Shown one piece after another: positions 6,607-45,900 of a stretch of 46,762 bases of DNA (its first letter is position 1; every line of letters starts with the position of its first letter). The notes below the pieces were generated by a model. That model was not told the DNA's origin and did not search any database. It worked only from the letters and a program-made list of their open reading frames with translations. Source of the stretch: Bacteroidales bacterium (GTDB lineage: Bacteria; Bacteroidota; Bacteroidia; Bacteroidales; GWA2-32-17); the NCBI GenBank assembly GCA_026417155.1, contig JAOADU010000037.1, positions 1 to 46,762 on the forward strand. Reading direction: 5' to 3'. A program made the translations under genes and the position numbers.

Positions 6607-7199
6607 GTCCCAATTTAAGCAATAAAGCATTGCAAGACTATGTCCTTGTTCAGCAAGCTATTAAAGGCGACGAACGGGCATATGCCGAATTAATGGGACG
6701 GTATCGCGACTCTATTTACTTTATGCTCCTTAAAATGGTAAATAATAAAGTAGATGCTGAAGATTTAACTATTGAAGCCTTTACCAAAGCATTTAAAAAT
6801 TTATCGTTATATTCACCAAGTTTTGCTTTTAGTACTTGGCTCTTCAAAATAGCAACCAATAATTGTATTGATTTTCTCAGAAAAAAACGGAGTGATATTG
6901 TATCTATTGATGCTCCTTCGAACGACTCCGACCAAGACAGTGCCATCCCGCTAGCATCCAACGGATTAGATCCCGAAGAAGAACTTATTAAAGAGCAAAA
7001 ACTTATACTCATGCGTGATATTGTTGAAAAACTTAAACCACGCTACCGAATGCTAATTGAACTTAGATATTTCAAAGAATATTCGTACGAAGAAATCTCT
7101 GAAGAACTCGAAATTCCTGTAGGGACTGTAAAAGCACAACTCTTTAGGGCACGCGAACTTCTTTTTCTTATCATGAAAAAATCAAGAGATAAAATTTAA
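6597..7199 (+). CDS. ECF-type RNA polymerase sigma-70 factor
   Basis: A 200-residue sigma factor with only regions 2 and 4. Region 2 runs from AYAELMGRYRDSIYFMLLKM through DAEDLTIEAFTKAF to FSTWLFKIATNNCIDFLRKK. Region 4 is the helix-turn-helix YSYEEISEELEIPVGTVKAQLFRAREL. An acidic linker (about 105-130) joins them. The promoter set cannot be read from sequence. ECF factors in this phylum are commonly followed by a FecR-type anti-sigma gene, but here the next gene is rsmG, joined by TAATG, and no anti-sigma gene lies near. It may be constitutively active or controlled from elsewhere. Confidence 0.92.
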   Translation: MEISPNLSNKALQDYVLVQQAIKGDERAYAELMGRYRDSIYFMLLKMVNNKVDAEDLTIEAFTKAFKNLSLYSPSFAFSTWLFKIATNNCIDFLRKKRSDIVSIDAPSNDSDQDSAIPLASNGLDPEEELIKEQKLILMRDIVEKLKPRYRMLIELRYFKEYSYEEISEELEIPVGTVKAQLFRARELLFLIMKKSRDKI

Positions 7200-7804
7200 T
7201 GGACATTCTCCATAAGTATTTTCCCAATCTTACTCCTCTGCAAATTCATCAATATGGTCAATTATTTGAACTTTATCAGTTTTGGAACCAGCGAATAAAT
7301 TTAATTTCTCGAAAAGATATTGAATTTCTATATGAACGACATGTATTGCACTCATTAGCCATTGCTAAAGTTTTTACTTTTTCACAACATGACACAATAT
7401 TAGATGTTGGCACAGGTGGTGGATTTCCTGGAATACCCCTCGCTATTATGTTTCCTCAGGCACATTTTAGCTTAATAGACTCTATCGGTAAAAAAATTAT
7501 GGTAGTAAACGACATTGTTCATAAATTAAATTTAACTAACGTTAAAGCCGAACATATCAATGCTAAACAAAAACAAGGCGAATACACATATATTATCAGT
7601 CGAGCTGTTTGTGAAACAAAAGAATTCCTTAACCTTACAAAAAAAAACATCATACCAGGAACTAGTAAAATAATTTTGCTAAAAGGAGGCCATTTAAATC
7701 ATGAACTTGCTTCAATAAAACATAAAATAGTAATTATAGATATTGCAAAATACTTTGAAGAATCTTTTTTCGAAACAAAAAAAATTGTAATATTACACGG
7801 TTAA
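7199..7804 (+). CDS. rsmG: 16S rRNA (guanine-527-N7)-methyltransferase
   Basis: A 201-residue Rossmann-fold methyltransferase of usual RsmG (GidB) length. Family marks are the N-terminal WNQRINLISRKD and ERHVLHSLAIAK, the S-adenosylmethionine motif ILDVGTGGGFPGIPLAIMFP (about 67-86), LIDSIGKKIMVVND for ribose binding, and the late YIISRAV. It methylates N7 of G527 in the 530 loop of 16S rRNA. The ATG shares its first base with the last base of the sigma-factor stop (TAATG), so it is cotranslated with that gene. Loss-of-function alleles are known to give low-level streptomycin resistance in other bacteria. Confidence 0.93.
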   Translation: MDILHKYFPNLTPLQIHQYGQLFELYQFWNQRINLISRKDIEFLYERHVLHSLAIAKVFTFSQHDTILDVGTGGGFPGIPLAIMFPQAHFSLIDSIGKKIMVVNDIVHKLNLTNVKAEHINAKQKQGEYTYIISRAVCETKEFLNLTKKNIIPGTSKIILLKGGHLNHELASIKHKIVIIDIAKYFEESFFETKKIVILHG

Positions 7805-7831
7805 ATTAAACTTAACATTCACGAAACATTC

Positions 7832-8671
7832 ATGAAACAATTCTTTATTATAATGCCATTACTTTGTTATTGTTTTACGTTTTCTCAAACTTGTCAAGAT
7901 GTTATTAATCAATCATTGCAAAAAATTTCCGAATTGCAAACAGCTTCATTTTACATAATTGCCAAAGAACGTTTTGGTAACGATTTTAAATTAGAAAAAG
8001 CATTTTACAAAGTGCAAAACAATCCATTAGCCATTTATTATAAGCAATTATTTCCACCAACTCATGCTGAGGTACTAATCAATGAAAAATATCAAAAAAT
8101 GGCATTAGTAAATCCTAATGGGTTCCCTTATATAAGCTTAAAATTAAGTCCGTTTGGAGAAAAATTACGCGAAAAACAACATCACAATATATTTCAAGCA
8201 GGTTTTACATACATTAAGAGCGTACTAATATATTTAAAAAATAAATATAATGTTTCATGGACAGATGTTTGCCAATTATTCGAAACCGTCAAAATAAAAA
8301 ACACCGAATGTTATAAAATAACTCTTATCAACAAGTTTTACAAAATAACAGACTATACATTGCCAAAAGATATTTCATTACAAACATTGGCTTTGCAATT
8401 GTTTTTATGCGACTATAAAATTCTTGAGTTGAATCCTGAAATAAAAAACATTTTTTCCATTTTACCCAAAGGAACAAAAATAAAAATACCAAGCGATTAT
8501 GCTCAAAAAATAGTAATGTTCATTGATAAATCTACTCTATTACCCATTAAAATTGAAGTTTACGACGAAATAGGACTTTTTGAAGAATATATGTTTGAAG
8601 ACATTACAATTAATCCTAAATTTAGTCCATTAGATTTCGATGAAAATAATAAAGATTATGGTTTCAAATAA
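7832..8671 (+). CDS. Exported DUF1571-family protein with embedded LysM-like segment
   Basis: A 279-residue protein with a signal peptide (cleavage near FSQT). The pattern is that of Bacteroidota DUF1571 proteins: an early FYKVQNNPLAIYYKQ, then ALVNPNGFPYISLKLSPFG, KQHHNIFQAGF and the C-terminal TLLPIKIEVYDEIGLFEEYMF. The beta-rich fold resembles the LolA/LolB lipoprotein-carrier class, so an envelope role is likely, though no function is proven. Between about residues 177 and 226 a stretch (ISLQTLALQLFLCDYKILEL, then LPKGTKIKIPSDYA) reads like a LysM peptidoglycan-binding motif. It may tie the protein to the cell wall. It lies 27 bp after rsmG and overlaps the DUF2147 gene. Confidence 0.75.
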   Translation: MKQFFIIMPLLCYCFTFSQTCQDVINQSLQKISELQTASFYIIAKERFGNDFKLEKAFYKVQNNPLAIYYKQLFPPTHAEVLINEKYQKMALVNPNGFPYISLKLSPFGEKLREKQHHNIFQAGFTYIKSVLIYLKNKYNVSWTDVCQLFETVKIKNTECYKITLINKFYKITDYTLPKDISLQTLALQLFLCDYKILELNPEIKNIFSILPKGTKIKIPSDYAQKIVMFIDKSTLLPIKIEVYDEIGLFEEYMFEDITINPKFSPLDFDENNKDYGFK

Positions 8672-9113
8672 AGCACTTTTTATATTAACAATAGCTGTAA
8701 TATTTTTCAGTGTAACAAGTAAATCTCAAACTCACAGCGACGATATATTAGGGAAATGGCTTACCGAGAAAAACGAAGCTATTGTACAAATTTTCAAAAC
8801 AAGCGATGGAAAATATGCAGGTAAAATAATATGGCTTAAAGAGCCATTAAATGAACAAGGGAAACCCAAAACCGATATTCACAATCCCAACCCCGAACTC
8901 AGACAAAGACCTATTTTAAATCTTGTATTTATGGCAGGTTTTGTATACAACGATAACGAATGGGAAAATGGTATTATATACGACGCTAAAAGCGGCAATA
9001 CATACAAAGCTAAAATTACCATGACCGATAAAAATACACTCAACTTGAGAGGATATATTGGATCGCCAATGTTTGGAAGAACTACCGTATGGAAAAGAAA
9101 ATTTGATAAATAA
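8658..9113 (+). CDS. Exported DUF2147-family protein
   Basis: I prefer the ATG at 8658 over the one at 8640: it gives a clean signal peptide (MVSNKALFILTIAVIFFSV, cleavage near KSQT) and a smaller overlap, 14 bp, with the DUF1571 gene. The mature part of about 125 residues shows the DUF2147 pattern: ILGKWLTEKNEAIVQIFK, DGKYAGKIIWLKEP, WENGIIYDAKSGNTYKAKI and LRGYIGSPMFGRTTVWKR. These small periplasmic beta-barrel-like proteins are widespread in Proteobacteria and Bacteroidota; their molecular role is not established. The overlap implies coexpression with DUF1571. Confidence 0.8.
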   Translation: MVSNKALFILTIAVIFFSVTSKSQTHSDDILGKWLTEKNEAIVQIFKTSDGKYAGKIIWLKEPLNEQGKPKTDIHNPNPELRQRPILNLVFMAGFVYNDNEWENGIIYDAKSGNTYKAKITMTDKNTLNLRGYIGSPMFGRTTVWKRKFDK

Positions 9114-9162
9114 TTTTATATTGTAAAAAATACATTGTATTTTAGTAAATAAATATTGAACA

Positions 9163-11637
9163 ATGAAAACAAATCAACATCATAGCAGTGCCCACTACTT
9201 AGATATTTTAAATAAAATCTCGTATGAGCTTTCTTTCTCAATGCCTTTCGAAAAAGCATTTAATATTATTTTGCAACATCTAATTTTGCTCGAAGAAATT
9301 GATGCTGCAGCTTTTTATAACTTAAAATCCGATGGAACTCTCACTATTGACAAAACTATAAACTTCCCCGAATCATTATTAAAATCAAAACATCTATACA
9401 CACACGATTCCAAAGAAACCGAATTGTTACTCAAAGGAGAAACCATACTCATTGAATATCCTTCGCCCGACGATTTCTTTTCCATACAAAAACATATCTC
9501 GGATGCTCAATGGTCAATAATTTCACCTGCACGCCTTAATGGTGACGTTATTGGATGTTTAGTATTCATTGGGAAAAAAAACATCGGAAACTCTGCACTT
9601 CTGCTTAAAGTCATCGAAAACGTAAGTTACAAAATCGGCGGTGTTATTGGACGAATGGAATCGGACAAAGATATCAGCGAAAAACAAAGAAACCTTGAGC
9701 AACTGTTACAAAGTTTTCGCGATATTATTGTAATAACAAACAAAGAAGGAAAAATTATCTATTTCAATTCGTTACTTCCAGAAAAAACTGGCTTTCTCGA
9801 AGATGAGCTAAATGGACTTTACATATATCAACTTTTTCCTGACGAACTCGCTTTTGATGTAAAAAAAATTCTGCTCGAAAAAAATATTTCTTTTCATACA
9901 GGAGAAAACTTTCTGCTTTATCCATTATTGAGCGCCAATAAAGAAATAATTCCTGCCGAAACCATTGTTTCGAGGGTATTATGGTCAGGAAAAAATATGT
10001 TGCTTTGGAGTATTCGCGACTTAAAAGATAGAAAACTTGCCGAAGAAGAAATTGCCATTGCCCGAAAAAAAGCCGAAGAAGCCAATCAAGCAAAAACAGC
10101 ATTTTTAACAAACTTGAGCTTTGCCTTGCGTATTCCATTAAGTTCCATTTTGGGAATGAGCGAATTATTAATTAAAACCGACTTAAATAAAAATCAATTC
10201 AATTTTATTAATATAATCAATCGCTCAGCAGAACAATTAATGCTTATTGCCAATCAACTACTCGATATTTCCCACATTGAAAAAGGCGAATTACGATTAG
10301 AAGAAAAAGCATTTAGTTTAAAAGATGCCGTTATTCAGGTGCTCAATCAACAGTATTTTAAAGCATATAACAAAGGAATAGAAATCATTTGCGATTATGT
10401 TTCATACGGCGATGATATTATTTTAAAAGGCGATGCGCTTCGACTTTCTCAAATATTGCAAAATATCATAGATAATGCTATTAAATTTACCGACAGAGGG
10501 AAAATAGAAATCAATATACAACCCAAGCAATTACAAAACGATCAACAAATAGAAATTTTCTTTTCTATTAAAGATACTGGCAAAGGAATGAACCAAGAAA
10601 CTTTGCAGCAAATTTTATCCAACTGTAAACAAAAAAGCCCCATAAGCAATCCTTCTACAGGAGATTTTGGTTTAGGATTAATTATTGCGTATAATCTTAT
10701 TTCCATCATGGGTTCTACTCTTAATATTGAAAGCATACCAGAGATAGGAACCACCATGTCATTTACATTAACATTCAAAACAGGAAGCTTATCCGACATT
10801 TTACTACAAGAGCCCCAGAGCCCATTTGAAGTTAATGCCCCAACGAAAGACCACATATCTGTCCTTGTTGCCGAAGACCAACCTTTTAACCAGATTGTTA
10901 TTCAATCTATGCTTCAGGAGTGGGGATTTGAAGTAGATATTGCCGAAAATGGTAAACAAGTTATTGACAAACTATCGAATAAACATTACGATGTAATTCT
11001 TATGGATATCTTCATGCCCAAAATGAATGGAATAGAAACAGCTCAATATATTCGAACTCAAATGAACAAACCTATATGCCATATCCCTATTATTGCTATA
11101 ACTGCCAATGCTTACACCGAAGAACATAGAAAATTTTTAGAAGCTGGAATCAACGACACCATAACAAAACCTTTTAAATCATATTTACTTTTTAGTAAAA
11201 TCATCCATTTATTAGGAGTTTCGAAAGCAAGTTTTGCAAATAAACATCAACACGTTGCTAACGCTAATGATGTTGTTTCGTCGGCAGAGCAGAAATTTTA
11301 TGATTTGGAACTAATTAAAAACTTAGCCAAAAATCAAAAAGACTCCATTATTAAAATGCTAAATGTTTTTATTGAGAAAAGCACCTTAGAACTTCAACAA
11401 TTGCAAGAATATACATACTTACAAGATTGGGAAAAAGTAGCTTCTATTACTCATAAAATGAAGCCATCGTTTGCCTATCTTTCGATGAAACAACTCGAAA
11501 GTCTTGTCCAACAAATACATCATTTAGCAAAAAATAATGAACAATTAGATAAAATACCTAAACTTGTACAAAATACCAGGAGTTTACTTACTTTTGTGAT
11601 TGAAAAACTTCACGAAGAAATAAAAAATTTATCCTAA
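9163..11637 (+). CDS. Hybrid histidine-kinase-like protein lacking the H-box histidine (GAF-PAS-HisKA*-HATPase-REC-HPt)
   Basis: An 824-residue cytosolic multidomain signalling protein; no membrane helix is visible. Order: GAF-like sensor (about 25-165), PAS (175-290), a short coiled coil, dimerisation helices (310-375), HATPase_c (420-540; Asn438, DTGKG 471-475, GLGL 503-506), a receiver with phospho-acceptor Asp615 and Lys669, and a C-terminal HPt domain with His764 (ITHKMK). The H-box, normally S-H-E-L/I-R-T-P-L, here reads SFALRIPL: Phe320 replaces the phosphorylated His, Ala321 the catalytic Glu and Ile324 the Thr. Autophosphorylation at the usual site is therefore impossible, although ATP-binding, receiver and HPt residues are kept. 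It may act as an ATP-bound scaffold, or relay phosphate supplied by another kinase. gamma-CA follows after 2 bp. Confidence 0.88.
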   Translation: MKTNQHHSSAHYLDILNKISYELSFSMPFEKAFNIILQHLILLEEIDAAAFYNLKSDGTLTIDKTINFPESLLKSKHLYTHDSKETELLLKGETILIEYPSPDDFFSIQKHISDAQWSIISPARLNGDVIGCLVFIGKKNIGNSALLLKVIENVSYKIGGVIGRMESDKDISEKQRNLEQLLQSFRDIIVITNKEGKIIYFNSLLPEKTGFLEDELNGLYIYQLFPDELAFDVKKILLEKNISFHTGENFLLYPLLSANKEIIPAETIVSRVLWSGKNMLLWSIRDLKDRKLAEEEIAIARKKAEEANQAKTAFLTNLSFALRIPLSSILGMSELLIKTDLNKNQFNFINIINRSAEQLMLIANQLLDISHIEKGELRLEEKAFSLKDAVIQVLNQQYFKAYNKGIEIICDYVSYGDDIILKGDALRLSQILQNIIDNAIKFTDRGKIEINIQPKQLQNDQQIEIFFSIKDTGKGMNQETLQQILSNCKQKSPISNPSTGDFGLGLIIAYNLISIMGSTLNIESIPEIGTTMSFTLTFKTGSLSDILLQEPQSPFEVNAPTKDHISVLVAEDQPFNQIVIQSMLQEWGFEVDIAENGKQVIDKLSNKHYDVILMDIFMPKMNGIETAQYIRTQMNKPICHIPIIAITANAYTEEHRKFLEAGINDTITKPFKSYLLFSKIIHLLGVSKASFANKHQHVANANDVVSSAEQKFYDLELIKNLAKNQKDSIIKMLNVFIEKSTLELQQLQEYTYLQDWEKVASITHKMKPSFAYLSMKQLESLVQQIHHLAKNNEQLDKIPKLVQNTRSLLTFVIEKLHEEIKNLS

Positions 11638-11639
11638 CA

Positions 11640-12152
11640 ATGGCAATAATAATACCCGTCTTGGGCAAAGAACCTTCATTTGGCCATGATTGCTTTTTAG
11701 CACCCAATGCAACAGTTGTAGGCGATGTAATAATGGGCAATTATTGTAGTGTATGGTTTAATGCTGTTGTCAGAGGTGATGTGCATTATATTCGCATCGG
11801 CAATTACGTAAATATTCAAGATGGTGCAATTATTCACTGCACTTATCAAAAAGCACCTGTAAATATTGGCAATTATGTTTCCATAGCTCACAACGCTGTT
11901 ATACATGGTTGTACTATTCACGATAACGTATTAATAGGTATTGGAGCTATTATTTTAGATAATTGCATAATTCACAGCAATAGTTTAATTGCTGCTGGTT
12001 CGGTATTATTAGAAAATACCATCGTTGAAGCAGGTAGTGTATATGCTGGAATCCCTGCAAAAAAAGTAAAAGATATTGACCCAGAACTGCTTAAAGGACA
12101 AGTTGAGCGTATAGCTCATAGTTATCAAATGTATGCAAGCTGGTATAAATGA
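11640..12152 (+). CDS. Gamma-carbonic-anhydrase-like left-handed beta-helix protein
   Basis: A 170-residue protein built of hexapeptide repeats ([LIV]-G-x4) that form a left-handed beta-helix, with a C-terminal helix (LKGQVERIAHSYQMYASWY). Three histidines that usually bind the metal in the trimer are kept: His66 (IIHC), His84 and His89 (IAHNAVIHGC). This is the YrdA/PaaY/CaiE-like branch of gamma-carbonic anhydrases. Many members of that branch have weak or no proven CO2-hydrating activity, so carbonic anhydrase is a family name rather than a demonstrated function. It begins 2 bp after the kinase-like gene and overlaps the transglutaminase-like gene by ATGA. Confidence 0.88.
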   Translation: MAIIIPVLGKEPSFGHDCFLAPNATVVGDVIMGNYCSVWFNAVVRGDVHYIRIGNYVNIQDGAIIHCTYQKAPVNIGNYVSIAHNAVIHGCTIHDNVLIGIGAIILDNCIIHSNSLIAAGSVLLENTIVEAGSVYAGIPAKKVKDIDPELLKGQVERIAHSYQMYASWYK

Positions 12153-13582
12153 AAGCACTATTTTTTATTTTAATTAGTTTTTTGGTTTTGCTAAGCATAT
12201 TTTTTTCTGTAAAAAATAATAATGAACCGCCTTATTATTACAATTATTCCGTAACATTGAACGATACGGTTTCTACCACTCCTTTTTTTTATATATTAAA
12301 TTCTAATAATAAAGACGTTTTTTTAACATTTAATTTCAATAATCAATTTTTAACCTCTTATCAATTGCCAAGAATTACAGATACCACCTCTTTTGTAAAA
12401 AATTATTTTAATTTTTTTACCAATCGATTATCTCATTTAGATTATTTAAACCAACATCATATAGAACCTCTTGTTCGTTATAATTCTCTGGGTGTAGGCT
12501 TGTGCGGAAAACTTTCTAAAATCTTTTGTTTTACCATGACCTACAATGGAATTCCTTCACGATTGCTTTACTTAAACGGACATGTTGTTTGCGAACTATA
12601 CTATCAAAATCAATGGCATTTATTCGACATAGACAGAAAAACATTCTTCGAGCAGAATCAAAATATTCTATCATTCAAACAATTACTTTCTGACATGGAT
12701 AGCATAACATATTTATCTGCAAATGAATTTTTACTTTATTCCACTCAAATTAATTATTACAAAAATTTATACTCTACTACTCTCGACAATTTTTATGATT
12801 CTATTGCTAACGTCGTAAACGATAGCTTGATTATTCAACTTCCACCTAAAAGTACATTAGAAATTCCTGTTTACGACAACAATAGTATTGACCCTTTAGA
12901 TTCATATCATGCGTTTTTAAGAATCACTATTCATGATCTTAATAACAAGATATTTCTTCAAAATCCATTAGTTATCTCCAAAATTGAAGGTACAGGTCGA
13001 GTGTACTACAATCAACAAACTTATACTTTCCCTGATGATTCAATTCGTTTCAAATTCGATATTTTAACAAATTACAATTATCAAGAAGAAATTACTATAC
13101 TACAGATTAAAGATTCTTTATCTATTTATTATAGAATCAATCCGCTATTAGTAAAGCCATCTAAATTCAATGAATTTGATTGTTATTCTTCGTTACCACT
13201 AATTATAAAGCCTACTATTAAACAAATCACCCAACCATCAATTAAATTATTTGAACAAGCAATTATTGAAGATAATAATTTTTTATGGTTAAAGAAGCAA
13301 CTTCCCTTTTTACCTAAGCAACCTATCTTTTCCGTTTATTACTCATACATCAGCCCAAAACTTTCAAAACTTCAAATTGATTCAATAGGAACAAAAAATA
13401 GAATTGCTTTAATAAACGAGTTATTTTTAGATAATAATGTAATGTACGACGAAAATTCGTATTATACTATCTGGTATTGGATTTTATTTATGGATAATGA
13501 TGAATTTATGCGTTCGTATAACTTTTATTACAAATACTATTCTTTCTTAAAACTTATCCATGAATATCAATCGAAGTCATAA
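12149..13582 (+). CDS. Exported or membrane-anchored transglutaminase-like protein
   Basis: A 477-residue protein with an N-terminal hydrophobic segment (residues 3-21) that acts as signal or anchor. Residues 115-162 show the transglutaminase/cysteine-protease core: GVGLCGKLSKIFCF with Cys119, then GIPSRLLYLNGHVVCEL with His145, then WHLFDID with Asp160. Spacing and flanking residues (GIPSR before the His, W before the Asp) match bacterial transglutaminase-like enzymes, which may act as peptidases or cross-linkers. The regions on both sides match no family I know; the C-terminal 300 residues are rich in Tyr, Asn and Ile. It overlaps the gamma-CA gene by 4 bp and its end abuts the convergent envC-like gene. 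Confidence 0.7.
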   Translation: MKALFFILISFLVLLSIFFSVKNNNEPPYYYNYSVTLNDTVSTTPFFYILNSNNKDVFLTFNFNNQFLTSYQLPRITDTTSFVKNYFNFFTNRLSHLDYLNQHHIEPLVRYNSLGVGLCGKLSKIFCFTMTYNGIPSRLLYLNGHVVCELYYQNQWHLFDIDRKTFFEQNQNILSFKQLLSDMDSITYLSANEFLLYSTQINYYKNLYSTTLDNFYDSIANVVNDSLIIQLPPKSTLEIPVYDNNSIDPLDSYHAFLRITIHDLNNKIFLQNPLVISKIEGTGRVYYNQQTYTFPDDSIRFKFDILTNYNYQEEITILQIKDSLSIYYRINPLLVKPSKFNEFDCYSSLPLIIKPTIKQITQPSIKLFEQAIIEDNNFLWLKKQLPFLPKQPIFSVYYSYISPKLSKLQIDSIGTKNRIALINELFLDNNVMYDENSYYTIWYWILFMDNDEFMRSYNFYYKYYSFLKLIHEYQSKS

Positions 13583-19188: not shown

Positions 19189-22100
19189 TTATCTTACCAC
19201 AATTGTCATACCTCGTGCGTGGGCATTGAATTCGGGTGCGTACATACATTGAATAGTTGCTATGCCTGTCGAAAATGTTCCTTTTTGCGAAACTCTGAGC
19301 GAATATTCCATAACATATTTTCCACGATTCATGCGATCTATGAAAATATTGTACGAAGCATCTTTTACTTCGCCATAATAACCTAAGCCATCTTTATAAA
19401 AATAGCCCGAAAGCACTTGCATAGGTTCGAACGACGAAGGACGCATGTCTTTAATATGAACAAATTCTAAATTTCTATCGCATTCTACTACCAAACGAAC
19501 AACAACCACATCACCAGTTTTGAGCAATGCGTTTTCGGAAATAGGCACTAAACGTTTCCCCGACGAAGTCATAGTTTCGAGGTAATATTCGCGTTTTATA
19601 GACATGTATTTACTGTCGTACTGGCTAATTTTATCTAAATTCTCGAAGTATTGCCAGTGAATAGCTCCCCACGATAAATCTTTTCCTTTATTTTTTATTT
19701 CAATTTTACTATGTTTTGGCTGGATCTCGTTTGCCGATATTGTGTTTTTTATGTAACCTGTAGCATATTCTATATTTTGGGTTGATATTTGCAACGGTTT
19801 ATCGCCCCATGTTATCTCTGCGTCGAAATTCGTATTTAGTTCTCTATTGCCAAAGAAAAGCAAAGCATAAATAGCATCGGCAGTTGCAATGGTAGTCTTC
19901 CAGTTTTGAGTTTGCTTTTGTAATAAAAGCCAAAGTTTTAATTCGTTAATCGTTGATACCTCGTACATAATTTCGTTAAATGCTTCCATTAACAGCGATT
20001 GTGCTTCAATAGGTGCTTCTGTCCATAATAATCCTCGACTTATGGTTTTCCAATACATCCCTTGTTCTTCGTTTACTACACAACGTTCTTTAAGCGATTT
20101 AACAATTTCTTTTGCCTTTTCTGTTTCATTGTTTCGATGAAGTACCAATGAGAGCATTCCTTGTATGTATTCATTGTATTCTGTCCAATTCTTTTTAGCT
20201 TGATTGTAGAAAAATAAATATGCTTCCGATTTTAAAAAGTTTTTGTGTTTATTTAAGTAAAAACTTCTTGCATACAAGTAATGCACTTGAAAGCTACTTG
20301 GTACATATTTTTGTTTATCTTCATTATTTCGTAAAATATCTTGATAATCTTTTAGTATTTGTTGATCTAAATATGCAATTGCTTTATCCATAGCCGAAGA
20401 AAGTTTTGTATCTATGTCGTAAGCCTTTTCTAACCTGCCATTCCGCGATACAATATATTGTGTAATATAGCGATTTTCGGGCATCCCTGCAAACCAACCC
20501 CATGCACCATTCGGATACTGATTTTTGATAAGTTTTGAAGCAGCTTCGTTGAGTTCTTTTTCTATGCGTTTCTCATCAAAATACTTTGCAACATTGCGTC
20601 GTTGTTCGGTTTCTGTTAAGCTTTCTTCTACCCAAGGGGTTTCGGTTATAGTTGCTTGTTTGAGTTCTTCGTTCTTCGATAATGGCGAAATCAACGTATT
20701 ATGCAAAGTGTCGGTTTGCCATTTTCCGAATATTTGTTTAAAATTAGGAATTGAACTAACGATATATTTCGATAAGACGTTGGAATAATAACGATTAAAC
20801 AATTGTTCGTTGCATTCGTATGGATACGAACGTAAATAAGGAATAGCCATTACAGCATACCAAATAGGATTAGCCGTATATTCGAGCTTTAGTGATTGAT
20901 GCGTAAGGGTTGTGCTTTTTATTATTTCGTTCATTCGATTAAAGTTTATTTGCTTGGATTGGTTTCCTCGTATATAAAATGGAAGCGACTCTGTAACGAG
21001 CATGCGATTGGGCAAAACAGGCAACATAACCTCTTCGCCATCACTAAATAACTTAGTTTCGGCAATACAAGTTACTTTAACTAAGGAAAGATTTTGAGGC
21101 ACTTTGTATTCGAACGATACGACCTGACTTTGATTAGGTTTTATTGAAATAGTAGTGCTTTTCGAAAATTTGTTATTAGCAGAGCCGTTTATAGCATCTT
21201 CTATTATTAAGGTCACTATGGGCTTTTGATCACTATTTGATATATTATCAACTTTAACAAAGAGAACCATATTATCGCCTTCGCGGAAAAATCTGGGCAA
21301 TTGAGGTGTTATCATCAACTCTTTCTGTGTTATACATTCCTGTTGTAATATGCCGTATTTAAGGTCTTTTGTATGTGCAAATGCCATAAATTTCCATGTA
21401 GTAAGAGCTTCGGGGCTATTAAACGAAAATTCCACTTCACCACGTTCGTTGGTTGTTAAATTGGGAAAGAAAAATGCTGTTTCTTTTAAATTAGTTCGAA
21501 TCGCAGGTTTTTCGCTTTTTGTTTCTGAGTCTTTATTTTCCAAATTTTTATCAGCTAAAGCTGTTGTTTTTTCTTCTACTACACCGGGAGTGGGAGGTGA
21601 AGCTTCGGCAGCCATAACAATTCCATTTGTAGATTCATTTCGGGCATTGGCAGTCTTTTTTCCCATTCCATTGCGATACCGATAGCCCCCATAATAATGA
21701 AACCCAAATAAGTTGAGCTTTGGATATATTATATTCGTGATTTTTATCGTGGAAGGTTCTCGGTTTGTATAACAATTACTATTTTTAAAGTGAAACATTT
21801 CGTGTGTAAAATATAAATTATTGTAATACCACGGAAATGGTGAAAATGACCAGTTATGCTGAATAAATGCATCGAGCGATTTATCATACATAGTTGCCAG
21901 TAGTTCTGCTGTTACTTTCTCGCCTTTAATTCCCGTAATACGCAACTTCCATGTTTCTTTTTGTCCTGGAGTAATTTTCGACCTAAAATTTTCTGTTTTA
22001 ATTGACAATTCTTTATTATCGTAAGGAACTTGTATGATTATATCTTTTTGATAATGACGATTATTTTTGATTAATAAGAAATTCAGAATAAGATTGCCTC

Positions 22101-25100
22101 TATGCGATTCTGTTATTGGTATTTCTATAACATTAACTTTTTGTTGTTGAGCACGCATCCATTGATAATTTATTGGGTTATTAAAATAGCTTGTATTCAT
22201 CAGAATAAATGCATCGTGAAAGGCACTTCCAATAATAATCTTCGCTTTTTCTCCGGGTATATAAGTTGTTTTTTCAGTAACAACAAAAAGTGCATCGTTC
22301 GAAGGCAAGGTTGAGTTTTGTTCGAAAGAATATAAGATAAAGAATTGTTTGTATTTAACTTCTTTGCCTTTGCTATCGTTAGATATAATTTCGAGCATAT
22401 AATTTCCGGGCAATAGCGTTTGTGCTATGGGTAAGTTTATAGCAGTATCCTTGGGTATTTCGAACGACGATGTGTATAATTTTTGTAAAGGTTTGAGTGT
22501 TTCTATGCTTTTAAATTCATTAAAAACATTTCCGGGATATATTTTATTCCACTCTGTTTCGGAATATAAGGTTGTATCGGGGCGTGTCCACAACCTATTT
22601 CGCAAAGGTGTTTTGTTGTCTTCGAGACGGTAAAGGTTAATTGTTCCTTTTGAAGCAATTTTTTTACCATTTGCATTTTCGGCAGTTATGGTAATCGATT
22701 TAAGTTCATTCGATGTAATAATATCCGATAATGAGGTTCTGAAAAATAGTCCTACTGCTCCAACCGAAATTATACATTGTGCCGACTGGGTTTCTTGATT
22801 TATATCGGTAGCATCCATTTCTACTTTATACTGATAAAAAGTAGATTCGTTAATAGGGTATTTATTATCGGGAATTGCCTTAAACCGAATAACAGCCTTT
22901 CCTTGTTCGTCCGTTGAAACCATTCCTTGAGCAATTTCTACGATAGGCATATTTCTATAAAAATAATGATAGTATCCTCGCCATTGGGGTATTCGGGTAA
23001 CACGATATTTTACAGGAATCTGTTGTAAAGCTACGCCTGCATAACTTTTTACGGATACTTGCACCGAAACAGAATCGTTTAAAAAATATTCGGTTCCGGT
23101 AGCTTCTGCCTCAACAAAAAATTTTGGACGCTTGTATTCTTCTACTCTAAAACTACAGGAACCATGTGGTGTTTGTATGCTAAATGTACCATTTAACAAA
23201 CCTTCGGGAATAATGAACGAACCATGAAAAGTGCCAAATTCATTAGATGTTTTAAGTTGTTCTTCAACAATTTGATAATTTGCGTCGCGTAATGTTACAT
23301 TTAAAGGAATTTGAGGTGCAATATTTTTATCTTCATTTTTTACTTCTAAAACTATGCCTTTGTAATAAACAGTTTGTCCGGGTCTGTATATGGCACGATC
23401 GGTAAATAATATTACGGAATAGTATTGAGAATTTGATTTTGAGTAATAAGGACTAAGATAATAATATTGATCTGAGAGCAAAGTTTCTTCAGTTGTTTTT
23501 ATTTCGAGATAAACATTACCGTAGCTTTTTTTTCTATATGGATGATTGGGTTCTAAAATATTGGCCATACCCAGTTGATTCGTCTGATATGTTTGACCTT
23601 TGATAAAGTTATGTTTTCGCTGACCATATTCGAGCCAATATTCCGTAATGGTTGCATTGATTATTGGGCTTCCCTCGTTGCGTTTGGTAAGTATTATTGT
23701 ATAAGACCCATCTTCGTTTCTTGTTGAAGTTACGGCAATATTGGTAACATAAAGTTTTTGAAAGCATCGAATAGCTTTTTTGTCTAAAAAATCATTGCTT
23801 GTTGAGCAAAAAATGATGTAAAAACCTTTAGGAATCCCATTATAAATAGCCTCTATGCTGTGAGTTAAATAATCGGTTGTTTTGGGGAAAGTAATAGTTT
23901 TTTCCTGAACTAAGATGGAATTATTGTATAACTGTTTTAGCAATTCGTGATCGTAGTAATTAAGCGATAAGTCGTCGAAAACTTTTTGATCTATGGATCT
24001 AATTTGCGTATAAACTTTTTCGATATTGGTATATGTATATTTAACCGCAAAAGGTTCGTTTGGAATCGCTGCATCTTCTATTTCAAAATATACAGATGGA
24101 GTTAGGCAGTCTTGAATAAAAGCTTTTAAATGTGGGGTATGAAATGCTGTTGGAAAGTTTTGAATAGCTTGTTGTGCAAGTTCTATCGCTTTGCTTTTAT
24201 AATAACGATAATTATACGTGGTAGAATCGTCGAATTGATATTTTTCTGACAAAGACAACATTAATGTTGATAATTGCAAAACAATAGCATTCGAAAATGG
24301 GTGTAGTTTATATTGCTCATGCAGATTTTTAAGGGCTCTTAAATAATAAAATTCTTTATTGGCTAATGTGCTGTTTCGATAAACAAATTCAAGTCGTTTT
24401 AAATTAGCATCGATCAATGCTTCGGGTTGTGCATACGTCTGATGAAACGCAAGTAAATCTTGTAATATTTTAATGCCATAATATTGAAGCGAAAAACTAT
24501 CGGTTGTAGTAGGTTTTAGCTTGATGAATGTTGCTATGTCTGAAAAATACAAACTATCGTTTAGTTCAAAAGTATCTGCGGGTTTTGATAATGTAATTTC
24601 TTTGCTTGAAAAAAAATCTATCGCACGAAAAGCAATAAAATCATATAATGTTGGACGAAATTTGGTAGCAAATTCCGTATTATAATCGAGCATAATGTAT
24701 TTATATTCTTCGATTGATGCTTTTTTTAATTCGTCAGCTGGCTCTAATGCTTTCAAATGGTGTTTTATAATAACATCAGCTAAGTGTTCTAAACTCCATG
24801 ATCGGATATCGTCTCCTTCATCGGGCGAATATGTTCGTGTATAAAAACGATAACGGTTGGCAAGATAATATTGCCAATAAAGTTCTGCGCTTAAAGTGTG
24901 ATACAACGAAGAGTATGGAAAAGACGCATTATTAGCTTCTTTGCTTATTTCAGAAAGCAACGTTTCAAAAGCATCTTCTTCTATTACGTTGCGATATTTA
25001 ATTTTGTAGATATATGATTTTACAACTATATTCGGAATGTTATCGGTTTTAGCTTGCTGATGAATTTGGTTAACAATTTCTAATGCCGATTTTATGAGGC

Positions 25101-25221
25101 CTTTTTTTTCAAGACTATCAACCTTTTGCCACATTTTCGAATATGGATATGGGCGATTATTTTGGCTCATCATTGAAAAATAACCAAATATTAACACAAA
25201 AAACAATACTACTGATCTCAT
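19189..25221 (-). CDS. Alpha-2-macroglobulin family protein with thioester motif
   Basis: A 2010-residue exported protein with an N-terminal signal peptide (cleavage near MMSQN) and no lipobox. After a helical N-terminal region of about 400 residues come beta-sandwich MG domains. MG2 shows YRPGQTVYYKG near residue 615. A low-complexity Ala/Glu/Lys/Ser-rich stretch (about 1185-1240) lies where the protease bait region is expected. The A2M domain (LKETAFFFPNLTTNERG, near 1242) and the thioester domain (YECNEQLFNRYY, Cys1470 in the CxEQ motif) follow. Such proteins are thought to trap proteases at the cell surface. The classic neighbour pbpC is absent; dut and Fe-ADH flank it. This is the second-largest gene of the window. 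Confidence 0.9.
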   Translation of the reverse strand: MRSVVLFFVLIFGYFSMMSQNNRPYPYSKMWQKVDSLEKKGLIKSALEIVNQIHQQAKTDNIPNIVVKSYIYKIKYRNVIEEDAFETLLSEISKEANNASFPYSSLYHTLSAELYWQYYLANRYRFYTRTYSPDEGDDIRSWSLEHLADVIIKHHLKALEPADELKKASIEEYKYIMLDYNTEFATKFRPTLYDFIAFRAIDFFSSKEITLSKPADTFELNDSLYFSDIATFIKLKPTTTDSFSLQYYGIKILQDLLAFHQTYAQPEALIDANLKRLEFVYRNSTLANKEFYYLRALKNLHEQYKLHPFSNAIVLQLSTLMLSLSEKYQFDDSTTYNYRYYKSKAIELAQQAIQNFPTAFHTPHLKAFIQDCLTPSVYFEIEDAAIPNEPFAVKYTYTNIEKVYTQIRSIDQKVFDDLSLNYYDHELLKQLYNNSILVQEKTITFPKTTDYLTHSIEAIYNGIPKGFYIIFCSTSNDFLDKKAIRCFQKLYVTNIAVTSTRNEDGSYTIILTKRNEGSPIINATITEYWLEYGQRKHNFIKGQTYQTNQLGMANILEPNHPYRKKSYGNVYLEIKTTEETLLSDQYYYLSPYYSKSNSQYYSVILFTDRAIYRPGQTVYYKGIVLEVKNEDKNIAPQIPLNVTLRDANYQIVEEQLKTSNEFGTFHGSFIIPEGLLNGTFSIQTPHGSCSFRVEEYKRPKFFVEAEATGTEYFLNDSVSVQVSVKSYAGVALQQIPVKYRVTRIPQWRGYYHYFYRNMPIVEIAQGMVSTDEQGKAVIRFKAIPDNKYPINESTFYQYKVEMDATDINQETQSAQCIISVGAVGLFFRTSLSDIITSNELKSITITAENANGKKIASKGTINLYRLEDNKTPLRNRLWTRPDTTLYSETEWNKIYPGNVFNEFKSIETLKPLQKLYTSSFEIPKDTAINLPIAQTLLPGNYMLEIISNDSKGKEVKYKQFFILYSFEQNSTLPSNDALFVVTEKTTYIPGEKAKIIIGSAFHDAFILMNTSYFNNPINYQWMRAQQQKVNVIEIPITESHRGNLILNFLLIKNNRHYQKDIIIQVPYDNKELSIKTENFRSKITPGQKETWKLRITGIKGEKVTAELLATMYDKSLDAFIQHNWSFSPFPWYYNNLYFTHEMFHFKNSNCYTNREPSTIKITNIIYPKLNLFGFHYYGGYRYRNGMGKKTANARNESTNGIVMAAEASPPTPGVVEEKTTALADKNLENKDSETKSEKPAIRTNLKETAFFFPNLTTNERGEVEFSFNSPEALTTWKFMAFAHTKDLKYGILQQECITQKELMITPQLPRFFREGDNMVLFVKVDNISNSDQKPIVTLIIEDAINGSANNKFSKSTTISIKPNQSQVVSFEYKVPQNLSLVKVTCIAETKLFSDGEEVMLPVLPNRMLVTESLPFYIRGNQSKQINFNRMNEIIKSTTLTHQSLKLEYTANPIWYAVMAIPYLRSYPYECNEQLFNRYYSNVLSKYIVSSIPNFKQIFGKWQTDTLHNTLISPLSKNEELKQATITETPWVEESLTETEQRRNVAKYFDEKRIEKELNEAASKLIKNQYPNGAWGWFAGMPENRYITQYIVSRNGRLEKAYDIDTKLSSAMDKAIAYLDQQILKDYQDILRNNEDKQKYVPSSFQVHYLYARSFYLNKHKNFLKSEAYLFFYNQAKKNWTEYNEYIQGMLSLVLHRNNETEKAKEIVKSLKERCVVNEEQGMYWKTISRGLLWTEAPIEAQSLLMEAFNEIMYEVSTINELKLWLLLQKQTQNWKTTIATADAIYALLFFGNRELNTNFDAEITWGDKPLQISTQNIEYATGYIKNTISANEIQPKHSKIEIKNKGKDLSWGAIHWQYFENLDKISQYDSKYMSIKREYYLETMTSSGKRLVPISENALLKTGDVVVVRLVVECDRNLEFVHIKDMRPSSFEPMQVLSGYFYKDGLGYYGEVKDASYNIFIDRMNRGKYVMEYSLRVSQKGTFSTGIATIQCMYAPEFNAHARGMTIVVR

Positions 25222-39782: not shown

Positions 39783-39995
39783 CTATTCGACGATGAGCTT
39801 TTTATTTACAGTGCGTTCATTAGTTATAATACGAACATTGTAGATTCCGCTTGGCAATCCTTTGAGCGATAGTGTATATTTGCTGTTTGTTGCAAACGAC
39901 TCACTTACCACACGACCATCCATTGTAACGATTTGTATGGTTGCGTTATTTAACTTGCCCAAGGAAACTACAGTATAACTATGAGCTGGATTTGG
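39783..39995 (-). other. T9SS type A sorting (C-terminal) domain
   Basis: About 70 C-terminal residues of the giant protein. The opening VNPNPAHSYTVV, then IQIVTMDGRVV, then LPSGIYNVRI and the basic end NERTVNKKLIVE follow the type A sorting signal of the type IX secretion (Por) system. Presence of this domain implies that the organism has a T9SS encoded elsewhere. Confidence 0.9.
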
Positions 39996-42900
39996 ATTTA
40001 CTGTAATCATGTTGTTCCATTCTTGTTGTGCCAACGCAGTAGGAATTACATGTAATATATTAGACATTGCCGAGCATCCATTAACATCAGTTACAACAAC
40101 AAAGTAATCATCTTCAACTGCTACAACATAGTAATTGTTAGTTGCTCCTGCAATAGGTCCTTGCGAGTTATACCATTGATTTCCAGAAGGCGATGAAGAG
40201 AACAACGTATCACCATTTTGAGTAATAGCTGCTGTAGGCAACGAATGTATTGTTAATGTAGCAGCCGTTGGTGCACTTACGCAACCATTATTTATAGCAA
40301 CCACATAGTAGGTATAGGTGCCAGGATTGGTTTCTGTACTTTGGTAAGTTGAGCCTGTACCTATTTGATTGCTTAACTGTGCATCGCTATACCAATTAAA
40401 TTGATTATAATTAGATGTTGCTACGAAAGGATCTATGGTTTCGCCCATACAAGCATGAACATCATTAACTATAGGAGCATTGGGTGTTTGTATGGGAGCA
40501 GGATTTACTGTAGCAGCATTACTTGTACAGTTGCCCGAAGTATACGTTACCGTAACAGGATTTGCGTTGTTTACAATAATAGATGGAGTGGTTTCGCCAG
40601 TGCTCCAATTTAATGTTCCTGTATAATTCGAGGCTGTTAAAGTAGATTGATCACATGAATTGTTAACAGTAACAGTCGGAGCAGGTAAACTATTAACAGT
40701 AACCGTTATATTAGCCGTATTTGTACAACCTTGATATGAAGTAACGGTTACAGTGTATTGTGTTGTAGCCGAAGGAACATCGGTCGGGTTACTTAATGTT
40801 GAAGTAAAGCCAAGAGGTTGTGATGTCCAGCTAAATGTATTTGCTTTAAACAAATTCATTTTAGCATTATCAATTGCCCAATAATATCCCCAACTTGCAT
40901 CGTACACAAACCGTACTTTCAAATTAGGATTATTCAGATACGTATTAGGAACAGGAACAGTTGCATTAGCAAAATTATTGGCAGCACCTTGTGTTGTTGT
41001 CCAGGTTTGCAATGTTGTCCATTGTGTTCCATCAAATATCTCAACTTTGATGCTGCTACCCGTATAATGACGATAATAATGCTGGAACTGAATTGTCATG
41101 GTATCAACTCCTACACTGCTAAATACATCAGATATAAGTTCTGTGTGAGTTGTTCCACCATTACCTTGTTCATCAGAGTTAGATAAGATAAATTTGCTGT
41201 TATCTGGGCTTTGGAAAGTTGTTCCACCATAAACATATCCACTGGGGCGAACAGTCCATGCTGCAGCAGCTGCATTACCACCCGTCGAAGTATTCACGGT
41301 TGTGAAACTGTGAGTTGTTCCGTTGAAGCTTTCTAATAATACTTCGGGTGTATACATATTTCCAGCATTGAGCTGAACAGTTTGACCACAGGTAATAGTA
41401 TTAGGTGTTGCTGTAGCTGTAGCTACGGGAGCAGGATATATATTCAGATTAATGTCGTTAAATGCCACACAACCCGTTTGTGAATCGCTGGCTGTAACAG
41501 CATAATTAGATGTTGTTGATGGGGAAACAACAATTGAATTGCCTGTCTGATTGTTGCTCCATGTATAAGTATAATTCGAATTATTGCTTTGTGCCTGAAG
41601 GGTAATGCTTGTACCTGCACAAACATTATTTGCTGAGGCAACAATATTTACAGGATCAGGAGTTGCATAATTTACATTTACTGGTTCTCTTACACCGGTA
41701 CATAACGAAGTTACCTGCCAATTATAAAAGTACATTCTTGTACCACCGGTAATGTTATTTCCGTTTACTGTATTTCCTGTAATAGAGAAACCTTGATTTG
41801 TGTATGGGTAGCTATAAGTTCCTGCACCTCTGTATATGTTTAGATTATCGTAATATAGCATCCAACCGGTTGTATTTGCAGGAACAAAGAAATTCAATAC
41901 GAGTTGTTTCTTTGTAGTATTGCTTATATCGGCAGAAGTAATTGTAAAGGCACGTGCATCCACAACTTGGGTTAAATTATTTACTAAGTAAACATTTAAC
42001 GTTCCGGCAGTAGATGGATAAATTTCGACAGAATTAATGATAACAGCATTTGTTGTAGCAAAATACATACCATAACCTGTAAATGGAGTTAGTGCAGCTG
42101 ATGGATCATTTAATTTACCCACATTAAAGGTTGATAATACTTCGTAAGGTTCGGCATAATACGAAGCAGGTCCGGTTAAAACAGGTGTTGTATAATTTTG
42201 ACCCGAAGCAATAGGATAGCCACCTGTTGCTTGATTATACCACAATATGCTTGTTGTGGGATTGCTGGGTGTTGCACTTAAAACAACAGACCCCGAACCA
42301 CAAATATTACCATGAGTTACACCTGCTATTACAGGACTTGTTACTTCGATGGTAACAGTATTCTGTACACATGTATTTGCACCTATCGAAGCAGTAAACT
42401 TGTATTGAGTTGTACTATTAATTACTGGTGTTGTCAGTGAAATTCCATTGGCACCGGAAATTGCAGTCCAGTTAATGCCATCTGTCGATTCGTACCATTG
42501 TAACATTGCTGTTGACCACCCACTCGATGGGTTGACAGAAATGGTTGATGAGCCCGATAAGCATATTTTCGATGGTGTAGCGGTTAATGTTACAGATGAT
42601 GGAAGAACAGTAATCGTTACATTGTCGGTAGTAGCACATTCCGTTACAGTATTATAAGCATTGCAGATATAAGCATGATTTCCTGCTGTGGTGGTTTTGA
42701 AATATACCTGTGTTGCATGGGTTCCACTTGTATAAGGTACGGTACATGCAGCATCGGTAAAGAGATTTGCAGCAGGTGTCCAGGTAATCTGATCGTAATT
42801 GCTTGCACCACTTGTTACTTCTAACAATACTGTTTCGTTATTGCATACGGTAACATCGTCGGTAATAGTAATCGGTGTTGAACTTGTAATATTTGCAGTA

Positions 42901-45900
42901 ACTGGTACTCTGGGACCAGCACATATATTTACACCATTGATTAACATATTTGGCCTGTTCTGACTGACTGTTGCTGAAGTAGTAGTTGGGCATGCATCCG
43001 TATTATCTGCATACCTGAATGTTGTTGAATTGAAGCCTGTATTGGTAAATGTTGTAGAAGCATTATATGTATAAAATGTGCCACTTCCAGTTGGATCGTT
43101 GCTAAAGCATGTTTCAACAATAATATTCGATACGCCATCCCATACAAACGGAGTAGTAAATACATGCGTATTAGCGCCAACAACCGGTTGATAATCGACA
43201 GGTCCATATACTGAAACAAACCCGGTACTTTCAAATGTATTGGTTAAGGCAGTAATATTTGTCGGAGCAATACGAATAGTAAAGGCTTTATGTATTCCTG
43301 CACCATTCAAATTCGTTACATTGAATGTGATGGATTTGAGTAATCCGGCTTTAAATCCTGCTGCAGTCAATTCGGATGCTAAAATTAACATCTGGTGTTT
43401 GGAGCTTTCGTAATAATTGCCATATACAGCCGGATAACCTGTTGATGAATTTGCTGTTGTTCCAGTTCCAATCTGACCATTTACATTGGTTTGCAATTCA
43501 GCTGCAGCATAATAAGTAGTTGTTTGGTTTATAACAGGCGTTGTAAATGTTGTGCCTGTGCCCAATACATTAAAACCTGTTAGAGCATCGTACCAAACAA
43601 CCTGAGCATTAGTTGAAGCCGTTGCACCCAATTGTACTGTACCAGTACCACAGCGACTTCCATTCGTAGTTGTTAATATTGTTGGATTATTTACATTTAC
43701 TAAAACATTTTGTTGCAAACATACCGAAGATCCCGCATAAGCTGTAAACTGATAATACGTACTTTGATTAATTACAGGTGTATTGTAGGTTAAGCCTGTT
43801 GCACCTATGATGTCGGTATAATTTACTCCATCGGCCGATTGTGCCCACTGGAAGGTAGCTGTGCCCCACCCTGTATTAGGCGATACACTTAATAAAGAGC
43901 TTCCCGACTGACAAAAATCATTGGGCGATGCAGTAATACTTACCGTAGCAGGCAACGTGACAACTGTTGTGGTTGCTACGTTGCTACATTGAGTTGATGT
44001 GTTGTTGGCTGTACAAGTATATGTTACACTACCTGCAACATTCGTTTTGGCATATACTGTAGTAGCACTTGTTCCGGAAACATACGGAACGGTACATGCA
44101 GCATCGGTAAATAATCCGGTAGCAGGTGACCATAAATATTCATCAAAATCGGCTAAATTTGATGTTACTTGTATGGTTGCTACAGCATTATTGCATACAG
44201 TTTGATTTGGCGATATAGTAAGGGGTGCTGCTGCATTAACGGTAGCAACTACCGGAACGCGAGCACTTGGACATTGTTGCATTGTTGTTCCATAAAAACG
44301 TGTATTGATACGATTAACATTTACACCAAAATTTGTAGGAGTAGTCATCGCACATCCTGTACCATTATCTTGATATCCATAAATATGCGAATTGAAGGAT
44401 GTATTTGTATATTGAATATGAGTGGAAGTAGAAAATGTAGAATTATTTCCATAGCAAATTTGGATAACAATATTCGACACACCATCCCAATTAAACGGAG
44501 TGGTTAATGTAATAGTTTGCCAGCCTGTTGCAGAAAAAGTGAATGATGAATTTGAAAAAACTTCTGTCAATCCAGTTATATAAGATGTTGTTAGGGAATT
44601 ATTGGTTGTTTGCCCCATTAAAATTTTGAAGTTTGTCATCGCAGGCGAGCCAAGGCTAACAATATTAAATGCCAAGTCGGTAATATTGCCTGGCATAAGG
44701 TTCATTGCAGATAATTCACTGGCTAAGAATAAATATTGATGTTTGCCATCTTTCCAATTTGTACTGAATGGTGTTTGGGCTGCTGCTGTTGAAACGTTAG
44801 TTTGTGTTCCTGCCTGCACATAACCGGGCGATAATAAAATATTATTTGCTTGTGCATAGAACGTCGTAGTTGAACTTATCGAAGGTGTGTTAAAAGGAGA
44901 ACCTGTACCTAACAGAGTTCCTCCTGTGGGTGCATTAAACCATTGAATAGCATTGCCGGTACCAGTTGCTTGTAAGGTAACCGATCCTGTACCACAACGC
45001 ACACCGGGAGTTGTAGAGGTTATTTCGGTAGCAAAATTGATATACACCGGCGTAGAGTATGCTGTTTCGGGTCCATTCAAACAGGTAACCATGCAACGGT
45101 AATAAATAGGAGCATTAGGAGTTACGTTGTACGAGGAAGCTGTTGCACCCGAAATATTATTATAGGTTGTACCATCCGTTGAGCTTTGCCATTGATATTG
45201 CACACCCGTACCCGATGGAACATTTTGAATAGTAAGCGTTACACTTTGTCCAAAACATATTGGCGGAGTGATCGAACTTAATGTATTGCCCGGTGCTGGT
45301 GTAGTACACGTATAAGCAGCTGTACCTTCAAATTCGTCGGCGCCAATGTCGGTAGCTGTTCCCGAACCTGTGTATCCTGTTTCACCCCAACGTATATCAT
45401 TATCAATATCGGTAGTAATAGCAGGAGTAGTAATTTTTTGCCCCGAGCTTTCAATCATAGTTGGTACGGTGGTTTGAATATGCAAATCGAATGGTGGAGT
45501 AGTTATATTAACAAATGGAGGCATTACACTAAACGAAACATTATCTCGAGGAGCAACACGAGTTTGAAAAGCATTTATAGTTTGGTCGGCATTGGTACCA
45601 TCGTAAAATATTAAATTAGAAGGACCAGGTGTGCCTGCAAAAAAGTCATTGTTGTTTGAAGTATTAGCATAAGATGTTAAAGTAGTGGCATTTCGACGAT
45701 ACGCTACCGTAAATCCCGTTCCTTTAGCTTGTGAAGTATTTACCACAATATTGTTACGTAAGTCTAAGGTAGGAGTTGTTGAAGCACTTATACCAGAAGA
45801 GCCAAATAATGCTGCAGAACTTGTTGTATTGAGGTATATCGTATTGTAATATGCATTAACGGTTGTTCCACCAGTAATATTTAACCCTATAACAGCATTG

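Follow-up and report, generated by a model that had tools for sequence, protein, structure and literature searches.

A predicted pseudo-histidine kinase of the Bacteroidales that lacks the phospho-acceptor histidine and retains its receiver and HPt phosphorylation sites

Gene and domain organization of the locus

The window, by which we mean the whole stretch of DNA analyzed here (46,762 nucleotides, contig JAOADU010000037.1 of the Bacteroidales assembly GCA_026417155.1), carries between positions 7199 and 13582 the genes rsmG, DUF1571, DUF2147, a hybrid histidine kinase-like gene and a gamma-carbonic-anhydrase-like gene, in this order. The features of the last two genes are as follows; the family orthologues named here are described below.

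9163-11637 (+), hybrid pseudo-histidine kinase gene, 824 aa, in the order GAF-like, PAS, HisKA, HATPase_c, REC, HPt (open reading frame and Pfam)
9196-9594 (+), N-terminal GAF-like sensor domain, about residues 12-144 (six-orthologue profile against PDB 3ci6, E 9e-5)
9694-10020 (+), PAS domain, residues 178-286 (Pfam PF00989, E 3.6e-8)
10090-10287 (+), HisKA (DHp) dimerization domain without phospho-acceptor, residues 310-375 (Pfam PF00512, 41 bits; cut-off 26.9 bits)
10120-10122 (+), Phe320, replacing the phospho-acceptor His, codon TTT (F, F, Y and F across the four genomes of the genus)
10123-10125 (+), Ala321, replacing the conserved Glu, the kinase general base (A or S in the window's genus g1, A in genus g3)
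10132-10134 (+), Ile324, replacing the conserved Thr, the phosphatase residue (I in every family orthologue except that of G002)
10429-10776 (+), HATPase_c domain with intact N, G1 and G2 motifs, residues 423-538 (Pfam PF02518, 71.9 bits)
10861-11199 (+), receiver domain (REC), residues 567-679 (Pfam PF00072 Response_reg, 93.4 bits)
11005-11007 (+), receiver Asp615
11167-11169 (+), receiver Lys669
11356-11598 (+), HPt domain, residues 732-812 (Pfam PF01627, 30.8 bits)
11452-11454 (+), HPt His764
11640-12152 (+), gamma-carbonic-anhydrase-like hexapeptide gene, directly downstream of the pseudokinase

As a single sequence, the N-terminus of the window protein gave weak Pfam matches to GAF_2 and SpoVT_C. 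The structure matched by the orthologue profile, 3ci6, belongs to a phosphoenolpyruvate-protein phosphotransferase and is a GAF domain. No transmembrane-like stretch was found in the protein, the highest 19-residue Kyte-Doolittle mean being 1.65, inside the ATPase domain, and the protein is predicted to be soluble. In the AlphaFold2 model (mean pLDDT 73.6), the DHp region forms two long helices, accompanied by the ATPase domain, the receiver and the HPt bundle, and the nearest solved structures in a Foldseek search were histidine kinase cores, among them those of ShkA, GacS, RetS and DivL. No other two-component gene occurs anywhere on the window contig, and no regulator adjoins the pseudokinase. 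The window also contains two very long open reading frames, 19189-25221 (2010 aa) and 39783-46586 on the minus strand (2267 aa).

Substitutions in the H-box

The H-box of the window protein is FLTNLSFALRIPLSSILGM, i.e. SFALRIPL. The original prediction, made from this DNA alone, was that His, the adjacent Glu and Thr had been exchanged for Phe320, Ala and Ile while the ATP site, Asp615/Lys669 and His764 were kept, and the translated frame bears out both parts: the ATP-site motifs NIIDN (Asn434/Asn438), DTGKG and FGLGL are all intact, and the three downstream residues are present. An alignment of the HisKA region with homologues, as the prediction had called for, gave H, E and T at the three positions in 39 of the 39 relatives outside the orthologue group (49 kinases were aligned in total for the tree described below). 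The other kinases of the same genome that we inspected also retain His. No replacement histidine is conserved in the DHp helices, the window's His371 being Lys, Ile or Tyr in its congeners.

Compared with canonical HisKA hybrid kinases, the window protein thus has the HATPase_c domain with its N, G1 and G2 boxes and lacks the acceptor His with adjacent Glu/Asp. At His+4, where bifunctional HisKA phosphatases carry Thr or Asn, it has Ile324. The receiver Asp and Lys and the HPt His, which define a REC-HPt phosphorelay module, are all there. With a predicted HisKA/HATPase fold and no acceptor His in any of the genus's four genomes, the protein is a pseudo-histidine kinase in the broad sense.

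Orthologues in the genus and family

Our sample comprised four genomes of the window's genus (g1) and ten of its family (f1), several of them draft assemblies, and all ten were searched; L035 (CALGPK010000008.1, from a public collection) seems to be the same contig as that of G003 and was not counted separately. The congeneric orthologues have the H-boxes SFALRIPL (G003, 75% protein identity to the window), SYSLRIPL (G001, 60%) and SFSMRTPL (G002, 33%). The assembly behind the window is a draft in 90 contigs, which could raise the suspicion of an error in sequencing or assembly, or of a mutation that arose recently in this strain; since the same loss is found in the genomes of three other species at these distances, this explanation is refuted. 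The original prediction had argued against a sequencing slip from the three changes in the motif. The comparison of close genomes that it proposed for the Phe showed the His to be absent in four of four, with Tyr as the replacing residue in G001.

Outside the genus, the five genomes of genus g3 share the H-box SHAFRIPM, in which His is kept and Glu and Thr are replaced by Ala and Ile, together with an intact ATP site. The G004 orthologue (genus g2), incomplete because its contig ends within it, has SHEFRIPL, retaining His and Glu, and a damaged ATP site (NLTRF, DTSNG, GMDL). In G002 the ATP site is lost (NILEY, DSGII, EFEL), with a HATPase_c score of 37-42 bits vs 72-83 in the other three congeners; its HPt domain scores 16.8 bits, under the Pfam cut-off, and nevertheless keeps the His. 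The equivalents of Asp615, Lys669 and His764 are kept in each of the nine orthologues that extend this far, and the reading frame is open, without internal stop, in all ten. Another hybrid kinase of G002, L024 (C45:24281-25402), has its His (NHEIRNPL) and a HATPase_c score of only 35.8 bits; given this, kinase decay in G002 may extend beyond the pseudokinase gene.

G003 shares the whole gene order of 7199-13582, G001 and G002 share part of it, and genus g3 retains just the pseudokinase and the gamma-carbonic-anhydrase-like gene. Because the G002 gene lies, as in the other congeners, with DUF1571 upstream and the gamma-carbonic-anhydrase-like gene directly downstream, it is an orthologue despite 33% identity. 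The latter gene adjoins the pseudokinase in eight of the eight genomes of g1 and g3 with downstream sequence examined, and it appears to be a syntenic marker of the locus, a functional link being a candidate at most.

Phylogeny, selection and a proposed order of losses

In a kinase tree built without the H-box and ATP motif columns, the ten family members grouped together (100/98), followed by L063/L064 (100/99). The order in which g1, g2 and g3 branch was less certain (93/71), and the G002 orthologue sits on a very long branch (5.1 changes per column). The nearest relatives outside the family, L063-L066 from the same order, have an intact H-box and ATP site. Purifying selection acts on the gene as a whole: dN/dS is 0.05-0.08 within genus g3, and dN is 0.18 between the window and G003, where dS is near-saturated. 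In most comparisons conservation is highest in the DHp domain, with 91% identity between the window and G003 and 97-100% within g3.

The simplest reading of this distribution is that Thr->Ile came first, with a reversion or a separate history in G002, and that catalysis would have been lost afterwards by at least two routes, through Glu in g1 and g3 (with His as well in g1) and through the ATP site in g2. The loss of His, which the original prediction took as the main event, is real, and the family comparison suggests that Thr->Ile and impaired catalysis preceded it.

We also considered a relaxed constraint on the ATPase domain. The HATPase/REC change ratio was 1.51-2.41 for the focal group vs 0.58-1.10 in nine same-genus control pairs, but active REC-HPt kinases of the order score equally high (median 1.67 in 120 pairs; 1.8-2.0 in two g3 control pairs), and this idea was dropped.

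Other kinases and HPt proteins of the genome

Searches of the window's own genome detected two HPt domains, one of them in the pseudokinase and the other in a stand-alone 114-aa protein (L111:4049-4393, minus strand) directly beside the intact hybrid kinase L002 (C75). The genome also encodes at least five other hybrid kinases with an intact H-box, a terminal REC and no HPt (L003-L007). Given two HPt domains for at least five HPt-less hybrid kinases, it is plausible that an HPt is shared among them, and hybrid kinases that borrow the HPt of another protein are known (reviewed in PMC12471899). A mirror image of the pseudokinase is found in L008 of G000 (C50:75353-76795), a hybrid kinase with an intact H-box and a degenerate receiver (29.5 bits, just under the Pfam cut-off).

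Comparison with known systems

Natural kinase-dead histidine kinases have rarely been characterized, DivL and RcsD being the main examples. DivL acts on CckA and DivK and is not known to have a REC or HPt. DivL of Caulobacter has a PAS-linked HisKA/HATPase core with Tyr550 for His and is without kinase or phosphatase activity (PMC4211667). The window protein resembles it in carrying an aromatic residue in place of His (the orthologue L014 also has Tyr) and differs in its conserved REC and HPt, which set it outside the PAS-HisKA-HATPase family of DivL, and in the loss of Glu and Thr as well. RcsD of the Rcs phosphorelay of Enterobacteriaceae does not autophosphorylate and receives phosphate at its C-terminal HPt from the receiver of another protein (PMC5651002). 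Both have a kinase-like dead core and a retained C-terminal HPt; however, RcsD sits in the membrane, carries a periplasmic domain and is encoded together with RcsB, while the window protein, with no transmembrane stretch, a receiver of its own and no neighboring regulator, is predicted to be soluble and falls outside the RcsD family. It would work like a mixture of RcsD and DivL; we found no evidence of membership in either family.

The Pseudomonas proteins RetS and GacS share the hybrid-kinase core; GacS also has REC and HPt, and RetS regulates it through contacts between the DHp domains (complex 7n0e). The differences are that RetS sits in the membrane and still has its His, and that GacS has kinase activity. 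The nearest relatives in the tree, the REC-HPt hybrid kinases L063-L066, have the same HisKA-HATPase_c-REC-HPt arrangement and differ in their intact H-box (SHEFRTPM, SHELRTPM) and ATP site. Pseudo-histidine kinases as a kind are known, and what is new here is a probably kinase-dead variant with its own receiver and HPt; our literature search found no survey of His-less histidine kinases that covers the group of this protein.

Proposed function and alternative explanations

All that we say on function derives from sequence data and from mutant forms of other proteins. In four HisKA kinases, Glu->Ala after the His abolishes the kinase activity, and loss of Thr/Asn at +4 abolishes the phosphatase activity (Willett and Kirby 2012, PMC3510030); Glu249 of CpxA has been described as the general base (PMC3904827). 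By analogy, the window protein, without His, Glu and Thr, should be capable of neither the usual autophosphorylation nor the usual dephosphorylation, and both activities are probably gone. The original prediction had read the same loss of normal autophosphorylation from the window, and its genus-wide occurrence argues well for it. Of the roles suggested there, phosphatase as the main function was rejected because of Ile324, shared by all family orthologues except that of G002, and ATP sensing is not general, since key motifs of the ATP site are missing from the orthologues of G002 and G004. For a relay supplied by an outside source, the surviving receiver Asp and HPt His, together with the genus-wide loss, give good support.

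Since the receiver and the HPt survive and could carry phosphate, the likeliest role is that of a phosphorelay node, and we lean, with modest confidence, towards a dimeric scaffold that passes phosphate from REC to HPt and is fed in trans by other kinases. A cytoplasmic signal would be detected by the GAF-like and PAS domains, and dimerization and docking would fall to the dead HisKA/HATPase core. Asp615 would take up phosphate from the phospho-His of a different kinase, intact and either hybrid or simple; the phosphate would then pass to His764 and on to the receiver of a response regulator. We infer both the supply in trans and the direction from Asp615 to His764. In favor of the relay, the REC Asp/Lys and the HPt His have survived even in G002, whose ATP site has broken down. 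Against it, the window contig has no other two-component gene, the G002 HPt scores under the Pfam cut-off, three congeners have an apparently good ATP site, for which a pure scaffold has no need, and conservation of REC and HPt is in itself no proof of phosphate flow.

The main rival is allosteric modulation of the DivL/RetS type, which we regard as possible, clearly less probable, and able to coexist with a relay. Here the dead core would bind a phosphorylated regulator or heterodimerize with an active kinase and alter its activity, with REC and HPt as a switch or docking site and not a relay. The very conserved DHp helices would suit this role, and the closest folds include RetS, the RetS-GacS DHp complex 7n0e and DivL (4q20), which any HisKA kinase would match. 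There is also precedent in DivL, which functions with Tyr for His and neither activity (PMC4211667), and in a pseudokinase form of ChrS that acts via HrrS, with which ChrS heterodimerizes (PMC9491836). However, the full retention of Asp615, Lys669 and His764 exceeds the needs of docking. The same conserved residues would serve equally if phosphate ran backwards, from a regulator to His764, then to Asp615 and to hydrolysis, so that the protein damped another system as a phosphate sink, and an HPt-REC pair without its own kinase should be unable to push phosphate from ATP. The direction is a candidate only, and the classic drain among hybrid kinases, that of ArcB, belongs to a protein with kinase activity; we consider a sink unlikely.

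Two further explanations meet evidence already given. The intact ATP motifs of three of the four congeners and of the g3 orthologues would allow a half-active heterodimer, in which the ATP domain would act in trans to phosphorylate the His on an active partner kinase, but with the ATP site lost in G002 and damaged in G004, and thus dispensable in parts of the family, this is quite improbable. Motif decay by several routes and the very long G002 branch could point to a gene heading for loss without maintained function; the open frame in ten orthologues, purifying selection and the retained REC and HPt residues make such decay even less credible.

For the family as a whole, we tentatively propose, as one possibility short of the favored reading, a graded series from hybrid kinase to kinase-free relay hub, in which the phosphatase residue would have been lost first and catalysis by at least two routes, the loss of His would have become fixed in one genus, and receiver and HPt would have been selected as a shared entry for several HPt-less hybrid kinases. 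The window protein retains both downstream relay sites, and the five g3 orthologues with His and without Glu offer a ready-made series for testing the change from kinase to relay or scaffold. Counts of HisKA or HATPase_c domains overestimate the number of active kinases in genomes.
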